Origin: Candidatus Latescibacterota bacterium
Lineage (GTDB): Bacteria > Krumholzibacteriota > Krumholzibacteriia > WVZY01
Length of the DNA stretch: 64,000 nucleotides
Assembly (NCBI GenBank): GCA_011772205.1
Contig: WVZY01000031.1
Coordinates: 62,001 to 126,000, forward strand
Direction of reading: 5' to 3'
Shown one piece after another: positions 7,789-42,835 of the stretch (within the stretch, counting starts at the first letter, position 1; every line of letters begins with the position of its first letter). The notes under the pieces are model-generated. The model was not told where the DNA came from, searched no databases, and worked only from the letters and a program-made list of their open reading frames with translations. A program made the translations under genes and the position numbers.

Positions 7789-8841
7789 CTAAAATTCAGC
7801 AAGTGCTGACACGCGATGGGTAGCTTCGAAATCGTCGTGATGGAGATAAGCGTAGTCAAATCCTAGAAATCCGAAACGGACTCCCGCCCCGGCCGTAGGG
7901 TTCCCACTATCAACACCTCCGCGGACCATTACCCGCTCTTGAAACCGAATCTCGCCTCCGAAGTGGAGATCGGCGCTGGTCCGTCCAATCCAAAGCTGGG
8001 AGGCATTCTGTCTATTCTCGAAGAACACATCCGCGTCGAAAGCGATCAATAGCGAGCCGTTCAGCGAGTGAGAGGACAGAGTGTAGGCGGTACCGAGTTT
8101 GATCGAAGGGGCAATGAATTCGTTTGTGCCGCTACTCCAGCTGATGTATGTGCCGGTTATGTCCTGGAGCTTGACTCCGATGTCGAAGCTGGGAAAGAGA
8201 TCTTTGTAGAGAAAGCCTAGATCGAGTCCAATACCGGTACTGCTATAACCTGCAACGGCGTTCGAATAGAGAAGCTTAAGCGCCCCGCCTACGCGGCCGT
8301 AACCGGTCTTCAATGCGAAGGAACTAAGCAGAGCAAGATCGTTGTTGTTTTCCTTGGGGATCGAACTCATGTCGTAGTTTAATATGTCTCCGTCGTTGGG
8401 CTGAAACCCGGGGATCCCGTTTCGTTCCTCCCAATTCAAATGGTTGGTGATCGCAATATCGTCCACGCCCAGATGAATGAGCGCGAAGCCAAAAGCCGCC
8501 TCTTTTTCGGAGGATAAGATGCGGGCGGGCATCACAAACGATGCGAAGTTATAGTTAACTAACTGGCCGAACCGCTCGGAGTGCATGAAGAGAGCCTGTC
8601 GTTTCGTGAAACCGGAGATGCCGGAAGGATTCCAGAACACCGTTGACGCATCGTTTGCAACGGCTGCAAACGCTCCACCCATTCCCAAAGCCCTCGCTCC
8701 GCCGCCCATAGCCATGAAGTCACCCGCGAACTTCTTCGCGCCAGCATTCTGGGGCAAAATCAACATACCGACGAAGAGCAGCAAACACAGAAGATGAGAA
8801 ATCGTTATGCTGAGAAATGAGATTACAGTACTGCGCATCAT
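7789..8841 (-). CDS. PorV/PorQ-family outer-membrane beta-barrel protein
   Basis: The family includes PorV, an outer-membrane shuttle of type IX secretion, and related barrels of unknown role in FCB bacteria. After a signal peptide ending near NAGAKKF comes the typical block GARALGMGGAFAAVANDAST followed by FWNPSGI. The rest alternates as expected for a barrel (FGGEIRFQERVMVRGGVDSG) and ends in hydrophobic and aromatic residues. A TTG start at 8871 is possible, but AAGGA just before tandem ATGs at 8841 and 8838 favours these. A promoter lies at 8920-8947. It may serve secretion of the 'YPNP' proteins in the window (inference). Confidence 0.85.
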   Translation of the reverse strand: MMRSTVISFLSITISHLLCLLLFVGMLILPQNAGAKKFAGDFMAMGGGARALGMGGAFAAVANDASTVFWNPSGISGFTKRQALFMHSERFGQLVNYNFASFVMPARILSSEKEAAFGFALIHLGVDDIAITNHLNWEERNGIPGFQPNDGDILNYDMSSIPKENNNDLALLSSFALKTGYGRVGGALKLLYSNAVAGYSSTGIGLDLGFLYKDLFPSFDIGVKLQDITGTYISWSSGTNEFIAPSIKLGTAYTLSSHSLNGSLLIAFDADVFFENRQNASQLWIGRTSADLHFGGEIRFQERVMVRGGVDSGNPTAGAGVRFGFLGFDYAYLHHDDFEATHRVSALAEF

Positions 8842-8919
8842 AGAATCCTTCGAAATCACCAAGATCTGCAATCAGGGGGTCTTCAGAGGGGTCGAACTGT
8901 TAACCGTAGCTTCTTACTA

Positions 8920-27996: not shown

Positions 27997-30027
27997 TTAC
28001 TCAATGAGTACGGCCTTCCGGGACAGCGTTCCCTGCTGGGCTCTCATTTTGATAAAATACACACCTGAAGCCAATGAGGTCCCTCGATCATCCGTTCCAC
28101 TCCAGGGGATTTCGCTCAGGCCTATCCGCAATGGCCCGCTGTACAGAGTTGCAACGCGAGCTCCTTGCACGTTGAACACAGCCACTTCGACCTGATCTGA
28201 CTGCACGGAATGGAGAACAATGCGCGTACCAGAAGACGGATTGAAGGGATTTGGATAATTGGTAAGAAAGAACGCGGGAATGCTGCCCAAATCGGCGGGA
28301 TCTCTCTCGAGGGTCACACGCTTGAGGATCCACCCATCGGGATCCAAGTCGACCGAAGCGATCGGCCCGGGAACTTCGAACGCGAAACGATGCCTGGGCC
28401 CCGATGCCCATACCGTAGCGGTCGAATCCCATCCAGGTCGGGAGAAGCGAATATCCAAAGGTGCTCTGAATAAAGCTCCCCCGCTTTGAATCTGCTTCAC
28501 TTCGAGGCTCACGTAGTGTCCGGCTCCCTGGCCGTATTGGGTCCAGGAATATGCGTAATGCGGGCGACCGATACCGAATACCCACTGGTCGAAAAACCAC
28601 GAGAGGCTCTCACCGGACGCCGATTCGCATACCGCCTGGAAGTCGGCGGTGAGTGCATTCTCATAACCATGCGTCGATGCGTAATCGCTGAGGGCCTGGA
28701 AAAATGCGGAATCGCCCATAACGCGCCGCAGCATGTGCAGCACCCAGGCACCTTTCCAGTAAACCGTGATGTTGAACAGGTCATCGGGATCATACACCGA
28801 TCCCGGAAATCCCGAACTGAGATCTCTAACCGCCATGTAATCTCTGTATTCCTCAGGGCCTTGGGTGTTCTCCATCCAGAGAGCCTCTGCATAAGTAGCG
28901 AAACCCTCACTCAGCCAGATATCTCTCCAGTCTCCAACCGTAACGAAGTCTCCCCACCACTGATGAGCGAGCTCATGGGCGACGACCCTGTCGTTTCGAT
29001 GATCCCCCCTCACGAGAGAGCTGCCGTAAGTCGTGCACGTTTGGTGCTCCATTCCCAAGCTTCCCCAGCTTGCCTCGGCGATACCGTATTTTTCTCCAAC
29101 AAACGGGTATTGCCCGAAAACCGACGAGAAGAATTCGATCATCGAAACGGTCACGTTGAAATCTTCTTTCGCTTCGATGGAGTCCTCGGGGTAAATGAAA
29201 TACACGACTTCCATCGAATCTGCCGGGGCGTAGCGATAGTAATCCGAGTAAACGATATAATTCGATATCGCGACGGAGATGAGATAGGTGCTGATAGGAT
29301 ACGACTCCCTCCATTCGTACCGATGCTTTCCGTTGCCCCTATCGACAACTCCTACGAGGCGCCCGTTCGAAGCGACCACAAGCGTATCGGGAACGGTGAT
29401 CCAGATATCCGCAGTCGCCTTGTCATCGAGCACATCCTTGCAAGGCCACCACGTCCTCGCGTAGTCCGGTATGCTGATGCTAAAAATGGCCGGGGCATAA
29501 TCCGGACCATGAGTCTTGAACCTGAATGGTCCATAGCGACCCACAGAATCCGGTTGGCCGGAATAATCGATCGCTATTCGAAGCGTATCTCCCGGAGCAT
29601 AGGAAGCGGCAAGATCCACCGTTACGACATCGTTCGCATGGGTGAAAGACGCGGGCGAGCCGTTTGCACGAGCGCTCGACACCTCCATGTTGTCGAACAG
29701 GTCGAGCGCGATCACTGTAATCGGAACGGCCAGGACGCTGCATTTGGCCGCCACTGTGCCGCTGACCGTTTCTGCGGTGGGATCGACTTCGAGGTCGAGC
29801 TCATAATGCAGGACATCGAAACCCTGCTGGAGGGAGGACGCCCGTCCCTTTCGCTCCTGCTGCATCCTGAATAGGCCCGGCCAGCGATGCTGCATCTCTT
29901 TCTTTGCATTCATCTCGGAGTGCAGTAGCGTGTCTCCGGAGATCTGTTCGTGAGGCGGGGAAGCGGCTACCAGACGTCCGGAAAGGAGCCATATCAGGGG
30001 GAACGTGCAGAGGAGCTTCACTCGCAT
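27997..30027 (-). CDS. Secreted M1-family aminopeptidase with C-terminal FlgD-like/type IX sorting domain
   Basis: A 676-residue zinc metallopeptidase exported by a signal peptide (LLCTFPLIWLLSGRLVAA). The active site reads VVAHELAHQWWGD with the third ligand Glu in SEGFATYAEALW. The substrate-site GxMEN motif is altered to GMEHQ. The last 85 residues (LTNYPNPFNPSSGTRI onward, ending GVYFIKMRAQQGTLSRKAVLIE) form the FlgD-like domain that marks many secreted FCB proteins for type IX-like export and surface attachment. A paralogue lies at 40650-42659. GGAGG precedes the ATG. Confidence 0.93.
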   Translation of the reverse strand: MRVKLLCTFPLIWLLSGRLVAASPPHEQISGDTLLHSEMNAKKEMQHRWPGLFRMQQERKGRASSLQQGFDVLHYELDLEVDPTAETVSGTVAAKCSVLAVPITVIALDLFDNMEVSSARANGSPASFTHANDVVTVDLAASYAPGDTLRIAIDYSGQPDSVGRYGPFRFKTHGPDYAPAIFSISIPDYARTWWPCKDVLDDKATADIWITVPDTLVVASNGRLVGVVDRGNGKHRYEWRESYPISTYLISVAISNYIVYSDYYRYAPADSMEVVYFIYPEDSIEAKEDFNVTVSMIEFFSSVFGQYPFVGEKYGIAEASWGSLGMEHQTCTTYGSSLVRGDHRNDRVVAHELAHQWWGDFVTVGDWRDIWLSEGFATYAEALWMENTQGPEEYRDYMAVRDLSSGFPGSVYDPDDLFNITVYWKGAWVLHMLRRVMGDSAFFQALSDYASTHGYENALTADFQAVCESASGESLSWFFDQWVFGIGRPHYAYSWTQYGQGAGHYVSLEVKQIQSGGALFRAPLDIRFSRPGWDSTATVWASGPRHRFAFEVPGPIASVDLDPDGWILKRVTLERDPADLGSIPAFFLTNYPNPFNPSSGTRIVLHSVQSDQVEVAVFNVQGARVATLYSGPLRIGLSEIPWSGTDDRGTSLASGVYFIKMRAQQGTLSRKAVLIE

Positions 30028-37285: not shown

Positions 37286-37957
37286 CTACTTCTGGTATAG
37301 CTGCTTGACCTGACCCCACGTAACTTGTTCGGTGGGCACTGAACAATCTTCGATATCCAAGATTGTGTGACCTGATACATCGTCGTCCGCCCAGCTCCAG
37401 GGATCAGCATTCGATGAAGATCCGCTGAAAGACCCGAGACCGCAGTAATCCGCCCAGATCCCCGTGCCGTTCTTTATGACGATCAAAGTGCCGGAAAAGA
37501 CCGAAAAGGCGCGCTCATCGGGATCGATGATCGCATCGAAGTCGAAGTCCACGAGGGTTATTTGAAGCGTTGCCGTACCGCTTAGCTCGCCCATTGTGTG
37601 CCCTGTGTGCCATACCGGCTGGCTGGCGGTGGTACTTCCGTCAAAAATCGCCGTCCAAGTTCCACCGAATGGATCATAGTTGGGAGCATAATAGGTCGTG
37701 TTGATGTAATCCCAGCGCACTGCTTTATCGGCGTCAGGAGGCCAACCCGTATCGTCGACTAAAATGTCCCAGTAACCGCCTATGAGAAGCGGCTCGCCGG
37801 CGTCAACCGTTCCAGAGTAAACAACGGGTGACACGAGGAAGTTTCCGGTACCTGAGAAATCATACTCAACGTGGGTCGGCGTCTGAGCGAACGCTGATGA
37901 GGATCCGATGATCAGCAAGCCAACAAAAATCACCCAAACCAGCGATGCGTTTTTCAT
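37286..37957 (-). CDS. Secreted protein, tandem paralogue 2, with C-terminal 'TWGxVK' motif
   Basis: About 223 residues with a signal peptide (VGLLIIGSSSAFAQ). The mature part shares landmarks with the neighbour at 38007-38693: a DDTGWPP turn, a phenylalanine-glycine rich strand start, an acidic DFDFDAIIDPDE loop like a calcium site, and the ending CSVPTEQVTWGQVKQLYQK. Its function is unknown. The ATG at 37957 has AAGGT five bases upstream and is preferred over ATGs at 37975 and 37987. The terminator at 37205-37235 follows. Confidence 0.75.
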   Translation of the reverse strand: MKNASLVWVIFVGLLIIGSSSAFAQTPTHVEYDFSGTGNFLVSPVVYSGTVDAGEPLLIGGYWDILVDDTGWPPDADKAVRWDYINTTYYAPNYDPFGGTWTAIFDGSTTASQPVWHTGHTMGELSGTATLQITLVDFDFDAIIDPDERAFSVFSGTLIVIKNGTGIWADYCGLGSFSGSSSNADPWSWADDDVSGHTILDIEDCSVPTEQVTWGQVKQLYQK

Positions 37958-38006
37958 AAGGACCTTACCTTTCATTACCACGACCACAGAAAATGTCAGA
38001 CAACCT

Positions 38007-38693
38007 CTACTCCGAATAAATCATCTTAACCGCGCCCCAGGTCCGTTGTTCGACAGGTACCGCGCAGCTAAAATCGCGCAGATTGAGCGAGCCAGAATAT
38101 ATGGCTAAAATATCAGGGAGACCCGGATCGAAGTTCGCGAGAGTGCCGTTCATCGATCCAATGCTGCACCACCCAAAATACACGCCGTCGCTTTGCTCGA
38201 TGTGGACATGGAGGTTGCCCGCTACTGCCTGGTTCGCCAGTTCATCCTGATCGATGACGCCGTCTTTGTCGCTATCGTAAATCGTGATGATCAGATAGCG
38301 GATGATGCCACCCAGCCTGTTGCCACTACTCGAAAAGTGCCAGGTCACCACCGGAAATTGGCTTCCCTGAGCGGGGAAATATCCATCCCAATGTTCGCCA
38401 CCGGGCGTGGCATCGTAGGTGAAGAAGTTGGTGACGATGTGGTTCCAGCGGGCCGTCTTGTCGGTTTCAGGCGGCCAACCGGTATCGTCGATCTCGATCA
38501 TGAACCATCCGGGGGTCAGATCAGGATTGCTGTTGATCATCCCTTCGAAAAGAACTGGATTCTCCAAGAAAGAGCCCATTCCATCCAAGGTGAAACTGAT
38601 TGCTTGGGTTCCTGCAAGACCAGCACACGGTATGATCAGCAGGGCGCTTAGAAGACAAACAGCGAATGCCCTCCCGCACGCTTTTTCAATCAT
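38007..38693 (-). CDS. Secreted protein, tandem paralogue 1, with C-terminal 'TWGxVK' motif
   Basis: 228 residues with a signal peptide (LLSALLIIPCAGLAG). Shared with paralogue 2 are DDTGWPP, a Trp-rich middle, an EF-hand-like loop (DSDKDGVIDQDE) and the ending CAVPVEQRTWGAVKMIYSE. Two cysteines near the C-terminus may form a disulfide. A strong GAGGAGGG ribosome site lies nine bases before the ATG. It is the first of the tandem pair; the gap to the next gene is 49 bases, consistent with one operon. Confidence 0.78.
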   Translation of the reverse strand: MIEKACGRAFAVCLLSALLIIPCAGLAGTQAISFTLDGMGSFLENPVLFEGMINSNPDLTPGWFMIEIDDTGWPPETDKTARWNHIVTNFFTYDATPGGEHWDGYFPAQGSQFPVVTWHFSSSGNRLGGIIRYLIITIYDSDKDGVIDQDELANQAVAGNLHVHIEQSDGVYFGWCSIGSMNGTLANFDPGLPDILAIYSGSLNLRDFSCAVPVEQRTWGAVKMIYSE

Positions 38694-38891: not shown

Positions 38892-39656
38892 CTACCAGAG
38901 CTCTCTTTCGGCGTATACATCGAAGATCCGCAGGCTAAAGTTCGTGAGTTCCCCGATGATCTCGGGGTAGCCGTCTCCATTGATGTCGAGGAGGCTCATT
39001 CGGTCTCCGAAGCTGTTCTCGGTTTGCAACTCTATGTTGTAGAACTTGGAATCAAAAATAAATCCTGTGTTCAATATGATTTCCGGTTGTTCATCATCGT
39101 CAACATTCGCAACGATGATTTCCGCTGCTCTGAAGTTGCCCTGGCTCTGCCACTCAAGGCTCTTGTTGAGGCTGTCATATATGTAAAGAAAGGAGTCCGC
39201 AATAAAAATCAGCTCATCCTGGGTGTCCAGATCTATGTTTTCAGAAGTCATGCATTCGACTTTCTCGAAACGGTCTTGGAGGTTCTCCCAGAGCAGCTCG
39301 TATTCCTCGAGTTCATAAATGAGTATTCTTCCTCCGGCGGTGCCGATGATCAGCTCTTCACTGCCATCGTGATACAGGTCCTTTACAAAGAATGCTGTGA
39401 CACGGGAGCCGAGATTCGTCGTTTCCCATTCGAGCTTGAGCTTGCCCTTTTCAAGCCTGTAGAGATGAACATTCTGATTAATGTTTGCATAGAGGAACCT
39501 GGCCGATTCCTCCTTCGTGCCTTCCAGAACTATTGCAAATGGAAACCGGCTGGTGAGCTGCTTCATGCTTTCGCCACTGATATCAATCGATCTAGCCAAG
39601 CTTGCGAACGCAACGATGTTGCAAAAAAGGCATACATATACAAAGTGCCTTTTCAT
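38892..39656 (-). CDS. Exported FG-GAP/VCBS-like repeat protein
   Basis: 254 residues with a signal peptide (VCLFCNIVAFASLARS). At least three repeats of an aspartate-rich turn before a hydrophobic strand are visible: DLYHDGSEELIIG, NIDLDTQDELIFI, NVDDDEQPEIIL and DINGDGYPEIIG, as in calcium-binding beta-propeller blades. Four or five blades are fewer than the usual seven, so it may be a fragment of a propeller or assemble with a partner. Its start lies 51 bases after the mdh remnant on the same strand. Confidence 0.75.
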   Translation of the reverse strand: MKRHFVYVCLFCNIVAFASLARSIDISGESMKQLTSRFPFAIVLEGTKEESARFLYANINQNVHLYRLEKGKLKLEWETTNLGSRVTAFFVKDLYHDGSEELIIGTAGGRILIYELEEYELLWENLQDRFEKVECMTSENIDLDTQDELIFIADSFLYIYDSLNKSLEWQSQGNFRAAEIIVANVDDDEQPEIILNTGFIFDSKFYNIELQTENSFGDRMSLLDINGDGYPEIIGELTNFSLRIFDVYAERELW

Positions 39657-40649: not shown

Positions 40650-42659
40650 TCAACGGACCACCGTCAGTTTGCCGGTCGAACTGTATTTGCGCGACTGCAG
40701 CTTGTAGAAATACACACCGCTCCTCGGAAGAAATGCGCGCATAGAACCATCATCAAGATCGAAGGAATTCCGATCGGCTGGAAGATTCTTTTTGGAATTT
40801 CTCCACATGAGCCGCCCGCTCACATCGAAAATCTCCAGTACCGCATCTCCGGGCTCGGGAAGGAAAAAATCAACGCGTGCTGGGCCATTCGTCGGGTTGG
40901 GATACAAAACGACCGACAAGCCCGAGGAGGGGGGGCGCGAAGAAACGCCCGCGGGGACCTGAACCGCCGTTTTGAGTATTTGGCTATCAGGATCGAACGT
41001 CAAACTGATGGGCTCTTCGGAGAATGCCATTCGATAATTTTCGACATTGTGAGAGACGGGGAGGCGAAACACGGAGTCTCCCGCTGAGGTGGTGACGAGG
41101 ATTTCTATTGGGATCGTGAACACCGGAGCGGCTACCTGCGTCTGAACGACGTTCAAATTCAGCTGGTATCCGCTGCCGTCGCTGAATGAATTCCACGAGT
41201 ATTCGTATTCGGGATACCCGGCCTGGTATACCCATTCGAGAAAGAAATTCGTAAGATCGAGACCCGAGACCGTTTCGCATGCTGCACGGAAGTCATCGAT
41301 CGATGCATTGTTGTATGCGTAGGATGCGTGGTAAGAGCGAAGGGCATCGAAAAAGGCCGAGTCTCCCATCAAGTATCGGAGCATGTGCAATATCCATGCG
41401 CCCTTTTCGTAAACTGTGGCCCCCCACATCCAATCCGGATCGTATATCGGGAATCGGTTGGTCGCATCTTCGACGAAATAATTATCCCGAAACTCCACCA
41501 TTCTGGAGTTCAAAGCGGCCCGCCCTCCGATGTGTTCGTGCCACAGAGCATCCGCATACGTCGCAAAACCTTCGTTGAGCCATATCTCTCGCCAATCGCT
41601 CATCGTAACGCTGTTTCCGAACCAGGAGTGGGCCATCTCGTGGGCCACCACCCAGTCATTGTCGTGCGTGCCCCAAATCAGGCCCGAGCCGAACGAAGTG
41701 CAGGTGAAATTCTCCATCGCGCCCAGCAGCGGAACGAGAGCAGTTCCATAAACCTCGTTGAGAAACGGGTACTGCCCGAACATATCGGAATAGAATTCCA
41801 TCATGTCCGGAGCGTTCGAGAAAGAGGCCTGTGCAGCTGCGAGCTTCCTCGGATAGACATAATACGGCATTTCCATGGAGTCGGACGGCGTGTAGTGGTA
41901 CCAGTGAGAAAAGGATACGTAGTTCGAAATCGCTATGGAGATCGTATAGGTTGGGTGCCTGTAGAGAGTACTCCAATGAAATGTCTTTGTGCCGTCGCCG
42001 TTGTTCGTTTCAGAGATGAGAAGCCCGTTGGATGCACAGAAAAGCGTGTCGGGAACCGTGACGATCATTTCGCTCGTTACCTTGTCCCAAGGCTCGTCGT
42101 AACACGGAAACCAGTTTCGGGCCAAATCTGGTTCGCTGAGGTTGTATATGGCTTCATCGCGGAATCGAAGTCCCTGATCGGGATAGCCGCTGTATGAAAT
42201 TCGCACTGTGAGGATGTCATCCTGGCTGTAGGTTCCTGAGAGATCGATGGAGACCTTCCCCTGGCTGCGGGAAAACAACAGGGGGGACTCATCCATCCAA
42301 ACGCTGTCTGCGGTCATGTTGTCTTTGAGATGGAGGAAGATGGAATCGAGTGAGGCGGTGCTGACTCTGAATGTCGCATCAACGGTGCCGGCAACGAACT
42401 CGGTGGCCGGATCGATGGTGATATCGATCCGGTTATGGAGCATATCGAATCCTGCGGAGCCCTCTATGCCTGTAACGCTGAACCATCTCCCTTCCCTCCC
42501 GTCACCACGGGCGTCCCGCCCAGGTTCCATCTTCGTTCCATAGAGGATCTCGTAGCCATCACCCTGCCTCTGCCCGAGCGTTTCGAAAGCACCGGATCCC
42601 AGGCAAATCAGGCCGGCGGCCACTGCCGCGCTGCAACATTTCGCGAGACTGTTCGTCAT
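40650..42659 (-). CDS. Secreted M1-family aminopeptidase, second paralogue, with C-terminal sorting domain
   Basis: 669 residues from the ATG at 42659, which starts a clean signal peptide (AAVAAGLICLGSGAFETLG). The active site is VVAHEMAHSWFGN with Glu in NEGFATYADALW. Unlike the paralogue at 27997-30027, the substrate motif GAMENFT is intact. It ends with a FlgD-like domain (VVLYPNPTNGPARVDF, then SGVYFYKLQSRKYSSTGKLTVVR). The two peptidases have the same layout, so they come from duplication, and the first may have changed specificity. An open frame extends 75 bases further upstream but adds no signal-like sequence. Confidence 0.93.
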   Translation of the reverse strand: MTNSLAKCCSAAVAAGLICLGSGAFETLGQRQGDGYEILYGTKMEPGRDARGDGREGRWFSVTGIEGSAGFDMLHNRIDITIDPATEFVAGTVDATFRVSTASLDSIFLHLKDNMTADSVWMDESPLLFSRSQGKVSIDLSGTYSQDDILTVRISYSGYPDQGLRFRDEAIYNLSEPDLARNWFPCYDEPWDKVTSEMIVTVPDTLFCASNGLLISETNNGDGTKTFHWSTLYRHPTYTISIAISNYVSFSHWYHYTPSDSMEMPYYVYPRKLAAAQASFSNAPDMMEFYSDMFGQYPFLNEVYGTALVPLLGAMENFTCTSFGSGLIWGTHDNDWVVAHEMAHSWFGNSVTMSDWREIWLNEGFATYADALWHEHIGGRAALNSRMVEFRDNYFVEDATNRFPIYDPDWMWGATVYEKGAWILHMLRYLMGDSAFFDALRSYHASYAYNNASIDDFRAACETVSGLDLTNFFLEWVYQAGYPEYEYSWNSFSDGSGYQLNLNVVQTQVAAPVFTIPIEILVTTSAGDSVFRLPVSHNVENYRMAFSEEPISLTFDPDSQILKTAVQVPAGVSSRPPSSGLSVVLYPNPTNGPARVDFFLPEPGDAVLEIFDVSGRLMWRNSKKNLPADRNSFDLDDGSMRAFLPRSGVYFYKLQSRKYSSTGKLTVVR

Positions 42660-42835
42660 TACGTGCACGCTTTTAGCATCCTGAAGATCTCCAACCGGAT
42701 TGCGCGGGGAGCGGCGTGCTCCTCGCATAGCCAACCATTTTCAAGATAGATATCCATCTTGTTGTCACTCATAATCTTATATAATTTTTTGTGCCAAAGC
42801 AACGAAAACGCACGCCGTGGCGCGGCCTGGAGCGC

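Follow-up and report, generated by a model that had tools for sequence, protein, structure and literature searches.

A short C-terminal tail on small exported proteins of Krumholzibacteriota, a candidate sorting signal for type IX secretion

The tandem pair and its surroundings

The window analyzed here is a stretch of 64,000 nucleotides (contig WVZY01000031.1, positions 62,001 to 126,000; assembly GCA_011772205.1) from a member of the phylum Krumholzibacteriota. It contains two adjacent genes for exported proteins, here called genes 1 and 2 (Table 1). Both proteins begin with a signal-peptide-like stretch by our own heuristic. The true start of gene 1 is likely within the called open reading frame, at MKNASLV. 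A first-pass annotation had described the two as exported paralogues with a common C-terminal motif, and this description holds; both genes are present, and the motif lies directly before each stop. It had also called the last residues nearly the same and the middles strongly different. Only 10 of 17 tail positions are identical, and the difference in the middles was overstated. The two proteins are 34% identical across 222 residues (E = 8e-36), which makes them tandem paralogues. Profile scans of the pair gave no Pfam family above cut-off and no significant NCBIfam family. AlphaFold2, run on gene 2 without an alignment, gave a mean pLDDT of 32.

Table 1. Features of the window on which the analysis draws (aa, amino acids)
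Feature	Position in window	Strand	Basis or remark
Gene 1, exported 233-aa protein with C-terminal tail	37286-37987	-	ORF and signal-peptide heuristic
Gene 2, exported 228-aa protein with C-terminal tail	38007-38693	-	ORF and signal-peptide heuristic
C-terminal tag of gene 1, VPTEQVTWGQVKQLYQK, abuts stop	37289-37339	-	Core motif 37304-37321
C-terminal tag of gene 2, VPVEQRTWGAVKMIYSE, abuts stop	38010-38060	-	Core motif 38025-38042
EF-hand-like acidic loop DFDFDAIIDPDE, gene 1 residues 147-158	37514-37549	-	Ala at loop position 6; no Pfam match at E <= 1
EF-hand-like loop DSDKDGVIDQDE, gene 2 residues 140-151	38241-38276	-	Pfam EF-hand_1, E = 0.0024, 17.7 bits versus 25.4-bit cut-off
T9SS type A sorting domain, C-terminus of M1 peptidase 40650-42734	40659-40907 (contig C77:102659-102907)	-	TIGR04183, 38.1 bits, cut-off 23
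T9SS type A sorting domain, C-terminus of M1 peptidase 27997-30027	28009-28257 (C77:90009-90257)	-	TIGR04183, 33.6 bits
PorV/PorQ-family outer-membrane protein, PorV2-like, candidate T9SS shuttle	7789-8871 (match C77:69804-70721)	-	NF033709, 99.6 bits, cut-off 90

EF-hand-like loops had been proposed for both proteins. They are present in both, but the loop of gene 2 scores below the Pfam cut-off and gene 1 has no Pfam match. An EF-hand as part of the tag was rejected. The Pfam matches of 74 scanned tail proteins include no EF-hand family, and the loop is therefore particular to the pair. The pair adjoins a gene for an FG-GAP-like protein of 254 aa (38892-39656, minus strand), which carries neither C-terminal tag. 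An arbitrary 14-base pattern and a fold of the gene junction yielded nothing further.

The window also encodes two M1 peptidases. The YPNP/FlgD-type domain that the annotation saw on them is the type A sorting domain of the type IX secretion system (T9SS). Its suggestion of two export tags in one cell is supported, and the short tail is indeed unlike this domain; neither the pair nor the 74 scanned tail proteins match TIGR04183 or PF18962. A third T9SS-related feature is the PorV/PorQ-family gene. Its closest NCBIfam model is NF052325 ("putative type IX sorting system protein PorV2"), which it matches with 127.2 bits, below the cut-off of 325. The pattern [ST]WGx[ILV]K occurs twice in the window versus 0.25 expected. 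The common tail of the pair would be weak evidence by itself; the case is made by the remainder of the genome.

Form and extent of the tail in Krumholzibacteriota

The source genome (4.13 Mb in 81 contigs) contains 47 matches to [ST]WGx[ILV]K searched as a DNA pattern, versus 6 for a reversed control. This excess argues against a chance origin. Thirty-eight of the 47 close an open frame, in almost every case with 10 to 16 codons from motif start to stop. One of these 38 reaches a contig end, and its stop is not in the sequence. The other nine matches, left out as tails, include short chance frames and one internal transporter match. A longer pattern gave 36 matches versus 1 in the control, and it is present in all 80 genomes of the phylum, with at most one control match per genome. 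In five other genera, the stop lies within 13 codons of the motif start in 45 of 47 matches and at 24 codons in the remaining two, counted in 40 regions that were hand-chosen from the match listing and are not a random sample. The strict motif is terminal in 93 cases and internal in none across the phylum loci, most of which were chosen for the motif. The motif is thus a feature of gene ends and not an internal one. It reaches far beyond the pair, and its position and phylum-wide presence support the proposal, made from the pair, of a conserved C-terminal sorting or anchoring signal. At six loci (L002, L038, L044, L210, L223, and L224), the tail is in a short frame apart from the body of a tailed family. 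These out-of-frame tails may be frameshifts, assembly errors, or decay, and inspection gave no clear cause.

The consensus over 82 tails from the phylum is (V/T/I)P(T/V)EE(S/T)-[ST]WGx(I/V)Kx(L/M)(Y/F)(R/K)-stop. The W, G, and K and the residues allowed at the hydrophobic and aromatic positions were fixed by the search pattern. Beyond the searched positions, the residues favored ahead of the core are V/T/I, P/A/S/G, T/V, E, E, and S/T, and the core is preferentially followed by Arg or Lys. The stop falls no more than 2 residues past the Tyr or Phe in 73 of the 82. Looser ends are also present (TNWGRIKSLYR, TWSRIKQLYKR, and SWGAIKSLVE), and the pattern-based counts are therefore low. A cysteine occurs within 12 residues ahead of [ST]WG in 46 of the 82 tails.

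The same tail on many unrelated genes could have been spread by a small, functionless mobile DNA repeat inserted at gene ends. Codon use contradicts this explanation, to which we give next to no chance. Across the 31 tails compared from the source genome, every synonymous codon for Gly (four), Lys (two), and Tyr (two) is used. Their mean nucleotide identity is 0.65, not above their amino-acid identity of 0.67. The protein has therefore been kept and not the DNA, and the tail is not a copied DNA element.

The tail could also be a membrane anchor or a barrel-assembly (BAM) signal. In favor of this reading, the tail is amphipathic in pattern and has an aromatic residue close to its end. The profile of the 82 sequences, however, has no hydrophobic run and contains Lys and usually Arg/Lys within the tail, and the bodies matched by Pfam are soluble folds. 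The tail is unlike PEP-CTERM-type anchors, and its residue spacing differs from that of the barrel signal. We regard this reading as very improbable.

The proteins that carry the tail appear to be exported in the ordinary way. Our heuristic found a signal peptide in 26 of the 38 tail frames of the source genome, and most of the misses are short or cut frames. Among tail frames of at least 120 aa (n = 88), the same heuristic gave 76 signal peptidase I-like starts, 6 lipobox-like starts, and 6 with none. Gln directly follows the signal-peptide-like cleavage site in 11 of 27 tail proteins of the source genome. This resembles the Q-rule reported for Bacteroidetes (PMC10653852).

The tagged proteins are small, with a median frame of 225 aa versus 778 for type A frames. 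A Pfam scan of 74 tail proteins gave 7 beta-helix, 2 lamin-tail, and 1 each of ice-binding, C39-like peptidase, CBM96, and CBM20 bodies. Most of the 74 have no Pfam match at all. An NCBIfam scan adds DNRLRE and others. No Pfam or NCBIfam model covers the tail itself in the scans of the pair and of these 74 proteins. One short C-terminus is thus common to unrelated exported proteins within one genome; the tail is modular. By ordinary homology it would instead be the conserved end of one old, expanded family, with no transferable signal. The window pair is paralogous along its whole length, and one domain family makes up a good part of the set in the source genome, as such a family would predict. 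We consider this highly unlikely, given that the bodies come from unrelated families and that the joint alignment of tail proteins has a mean column identity of 7%, with only W, G, and K invariant.

Type IX secretion genes and the distribution of the tail

The annotation had proposed a search for co-occurring secretion genes, and these were found. The translocon protein SprA (TIGR04189) is matched in all 80 genomes of the phylum, with 72 over cut-off, and in 0 of 14 controls. A PorU-like sortase (NF033707) is matched in 80 of 80 at E <= 1e-3, with 54 over cut-off and 552.9 bits in the source genome; two control genomes match it below cut-off. The PorV family is over cut-off in all 80 genomes, with 2 to 17 matches apiece. 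SprA and PorV-family genes are therefore universal in the phylum. The source genome contains 13 PorV-family matches, 8 of them over cut-off and one inside the window, and 102 matches to the type A sorting domain TIGR04183. None of the 80 genomes has an above-cut-off match to the motor protein GldL, and there is a single weak match (E = 9.5e-4). The T9SS here is therefore not the textbook one. It has a translocon, a sortase-like protein, and shuttles but no recognized motor subunit. Three PorV-family genes of the source genome (on C69 and C11; L277, L278, and L283) lie immediately downstream of a gene whose product has a C-terminal type A domain. Similar pairs of substrate and shuttle genes are known for type B cargo.

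The tail was also compared with SprA in 50 named genomes drawn from 80 named loci. SprA was matched in 22 of these genomes, which come from many phyla. C-terminal tails, checked by reading the sequence, occur in 11 of the 22 that bear SprA versus 0 of the 28 that lack it (Fisher p = 1.9e-5, for genomes that are related and not independent). The 11 are G080, G081, G082, G083, G086, G096, G104, G114, G118, G126, and G129. Pattern matches in the 28 genomes lacking SprA are internal or in chance frames. The other 11 SprA-bearing genomes have no tail match. All carriers belong to the FCB group, and the association is confounded for that reason. In the phylum of the Zixibacteria record, 4 of 4 genomes match the pattern, and one (G082) was read in sequence.

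The tail is found in a second phylum, the one that holds G126 and the Calditrichaeota-titled record G096. The pattern matches in 68 of 82 genomes. TWG[SM][IL]KA[MLI]F occurs in 67 of the 82, counted on the strings of the pattern-match listing. At 31 loci of this Calditrichota-like phylum and its neighbors, the tail ends one small secreted protein with the consensus end TWGSIKAMFR-stop. These 31 are the ones that qualified among 36 loci (L145, L148, L161-L164, L172, and L288-L316); the remaining five, which were chance frames or other places, were not counted. Seven of the 36 came from the named-genome searches, including a KSB1 and a Kryptonium genome. By our reading, the protein has one FN3-like body, and it has no Pfam family over cut-off in the four that were scanned. 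Its last ten residues are 98% conserved versus a mean of 50% in the body, taking one protein per locus. Among the conserved columns are Ser, Ala, and the final Arg, none of them fixed by the search pattern. Such protein conservation across a second phylum also speaks against the mobile repeat considered above. The FN3-like protein is perhaps a part of the T9SS itself. With only about one tailed protein per genome, this phylum is equally compatible with a specific partner and with a general tag.

The bodies of tail proteins link the tail to type A cargo. For 15 of 29 tail proteins of the source genome, a relative at E <= 1e-5 has a C-terminal type A domain; in 14 cases this relative is in the same genome. 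The comparison used about half of the 102 type A matches. Four body types are common to both signals: beta-helix, two small domains of the FADPxG kind, and lamin-tail. No type A-bearing relative of the window pair was found among the type A proteins available to this comparison. Related bodies carry either signal and never both; none of the 93 tail frames and 63 type A frames has the two together. Some type A proteins of the source genome have a tail-like stretch near the C-terminal domain. A Zixibacteria locus (L173) contains three neighboring lamin-tail paralogues, two with the short tail and one with the type A domain.

The tail may instead be a peptide that docks or retains its protein at an envelope receptor unrelated to the T9SS, such as a periplasmic or outer-membrane scaffold, and the two tags would then send related bodies to different places. 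Gene order agrees with this. No tail gene of the source genome lies within 5 kb of a PorV-family gene, so the two are not linked. Seven of 38 tail genes have a type A gene within 3 kb versus 4.8 expected, which is not clearly above expectation. The count of about one tagged protein per genome in the second phylum and the conservation of W-G-I-K-L-Y-R, which resembles a peptide fitting a specific pocket, point the same way. The restriction of tails to SprA-bearing genomes among the 50 tested and the bodies common to tail and type A proteins argue against it. No candidate receptor was found, and the loci L165-L174 contain no common neighbor gene that could be one. We judge a separate envelope receptor unlikely, though more probable than the other alternatives.

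Reading of the tail and comparison with known signals

The tail is probably a minimal C-terminal sorting signal, with the T9SS as its candidate reader. On balance, we lean toward a modular signal on Sec-exported proteins that is most likely read by the SprA translocon and a PorV-family shuttle. The tagged proteins would be exported by Sec with an ordinary signal peptide and would fold into their unrelated secreted bodies. The short tail, which is probably helical and is aromatic and basic, would be recognized in the periplasm. The candidate receptor is SprA acting with a PorV-family shuttle; the genes of this family are numerous enough that one of them might read the tail. A tail of about 10 to 18 residues would thereby do the job of the 70- to 100-residue type A domain on larger proteins. 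Transport across the outer membrane would follow, and the tail may be cut off or kept as an anchor.

We propose a broader version more tentatively and rate its chances at slightly below even. It holds that the tail is the smallest class of T9SS signal, an aromatic-basic and probably helical peptide of 10 to 18 residues read by SprA and a PorV-family shuttle. The signal would be old in the FCB group and kept near letter-perfect on one protein of the Calditrichota-like phylum. In Krumholzibacteriota, it would have become a general tag carried by small secreted proteins in their dozens, and it would serve a T9SS without a recognizable GldL motor.

If the tail is a true T9SS signal, the translocon reads a peptide of 10 to 18 residues instead of a folded domain. 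The tail would then be a small probe of cargo selection by SprA and PorV. It would identify hundreds of secreted proteins in scarcely cultured or wholly uncultured phyla and tie the T9SS to lineages for which little or nothing was found in print. If the reader is not the T9SS, the tail suggests an as yet unrecognized envelope receptor that several phyla have conserved.

The tail peptide strings were not found in the literature searched, nor was a paper that joins Krumholzibacteriota and type IX secretion. The T9SS papers and one Caldithrix genome paper, in the parts available, contain no description of the tail. The tail is shorter than the T9SS signals found in print and lacks their motifs.

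PEP-CTERM, GlyGly-CTERM, MYXO-CTERM, and LPXTG tails are short, tripartite C-terminal tags that include a transmembrane helix and undergo cleavage by a sortase-like enzyme. Like them, the tail is a short C-terminal tag on unrelated exported proteins. Unlike them, it has no hydrophobic helix in the profile of 82 sequences.

Known T9SS signals are larger. Type A signals are about 100 aa and type B signals 150 to 235 aa (PMC12618676), and the type C signal is a 100-aa region (PMC10202324). Types B and C set a precedent for one translocon that serves several signal classes through different shuttles (PMC12618676, PMC10202324). The non-type-A classes are read via their own shuttle proteins (PMC12618676). 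The tail differs from types B and C in length, as these span 100 to 235 aa (PMC12618676, PMC10202324). It also differs in gene order; type B genes often lie beside a shuttle gene, and tail genes do not. In HBP35, the targeting signal is in the last 22 residues (PMC11285876). The "short" T9SS C-terminal domains of Prevotella intermedia are 40 to 55 aa and retain a three-stranded sheet along with motifs B, D, and E (PMC11969387). They resemble the tail in that shortened signals occur alongside long ones in one cell; the tail, however, is under half their length and has no motif B, D, or E.

Type A domains are bound jointly by PorV loops and SprA (PMC10994853). Like the type A domain (TIGR04183 / PF18962, Por_Secre_tail), the tail is C-terminal and modular, and it occurs on signal-peptide proteins, many per genome, in bacteria that bear SprA. 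The type A domain is an Ig-like beta-sandwich of about 70 to 100 aa. The tail, at 10 to 18 aa, is probably too short for this fold and has no recognizable motif B, D, or E.
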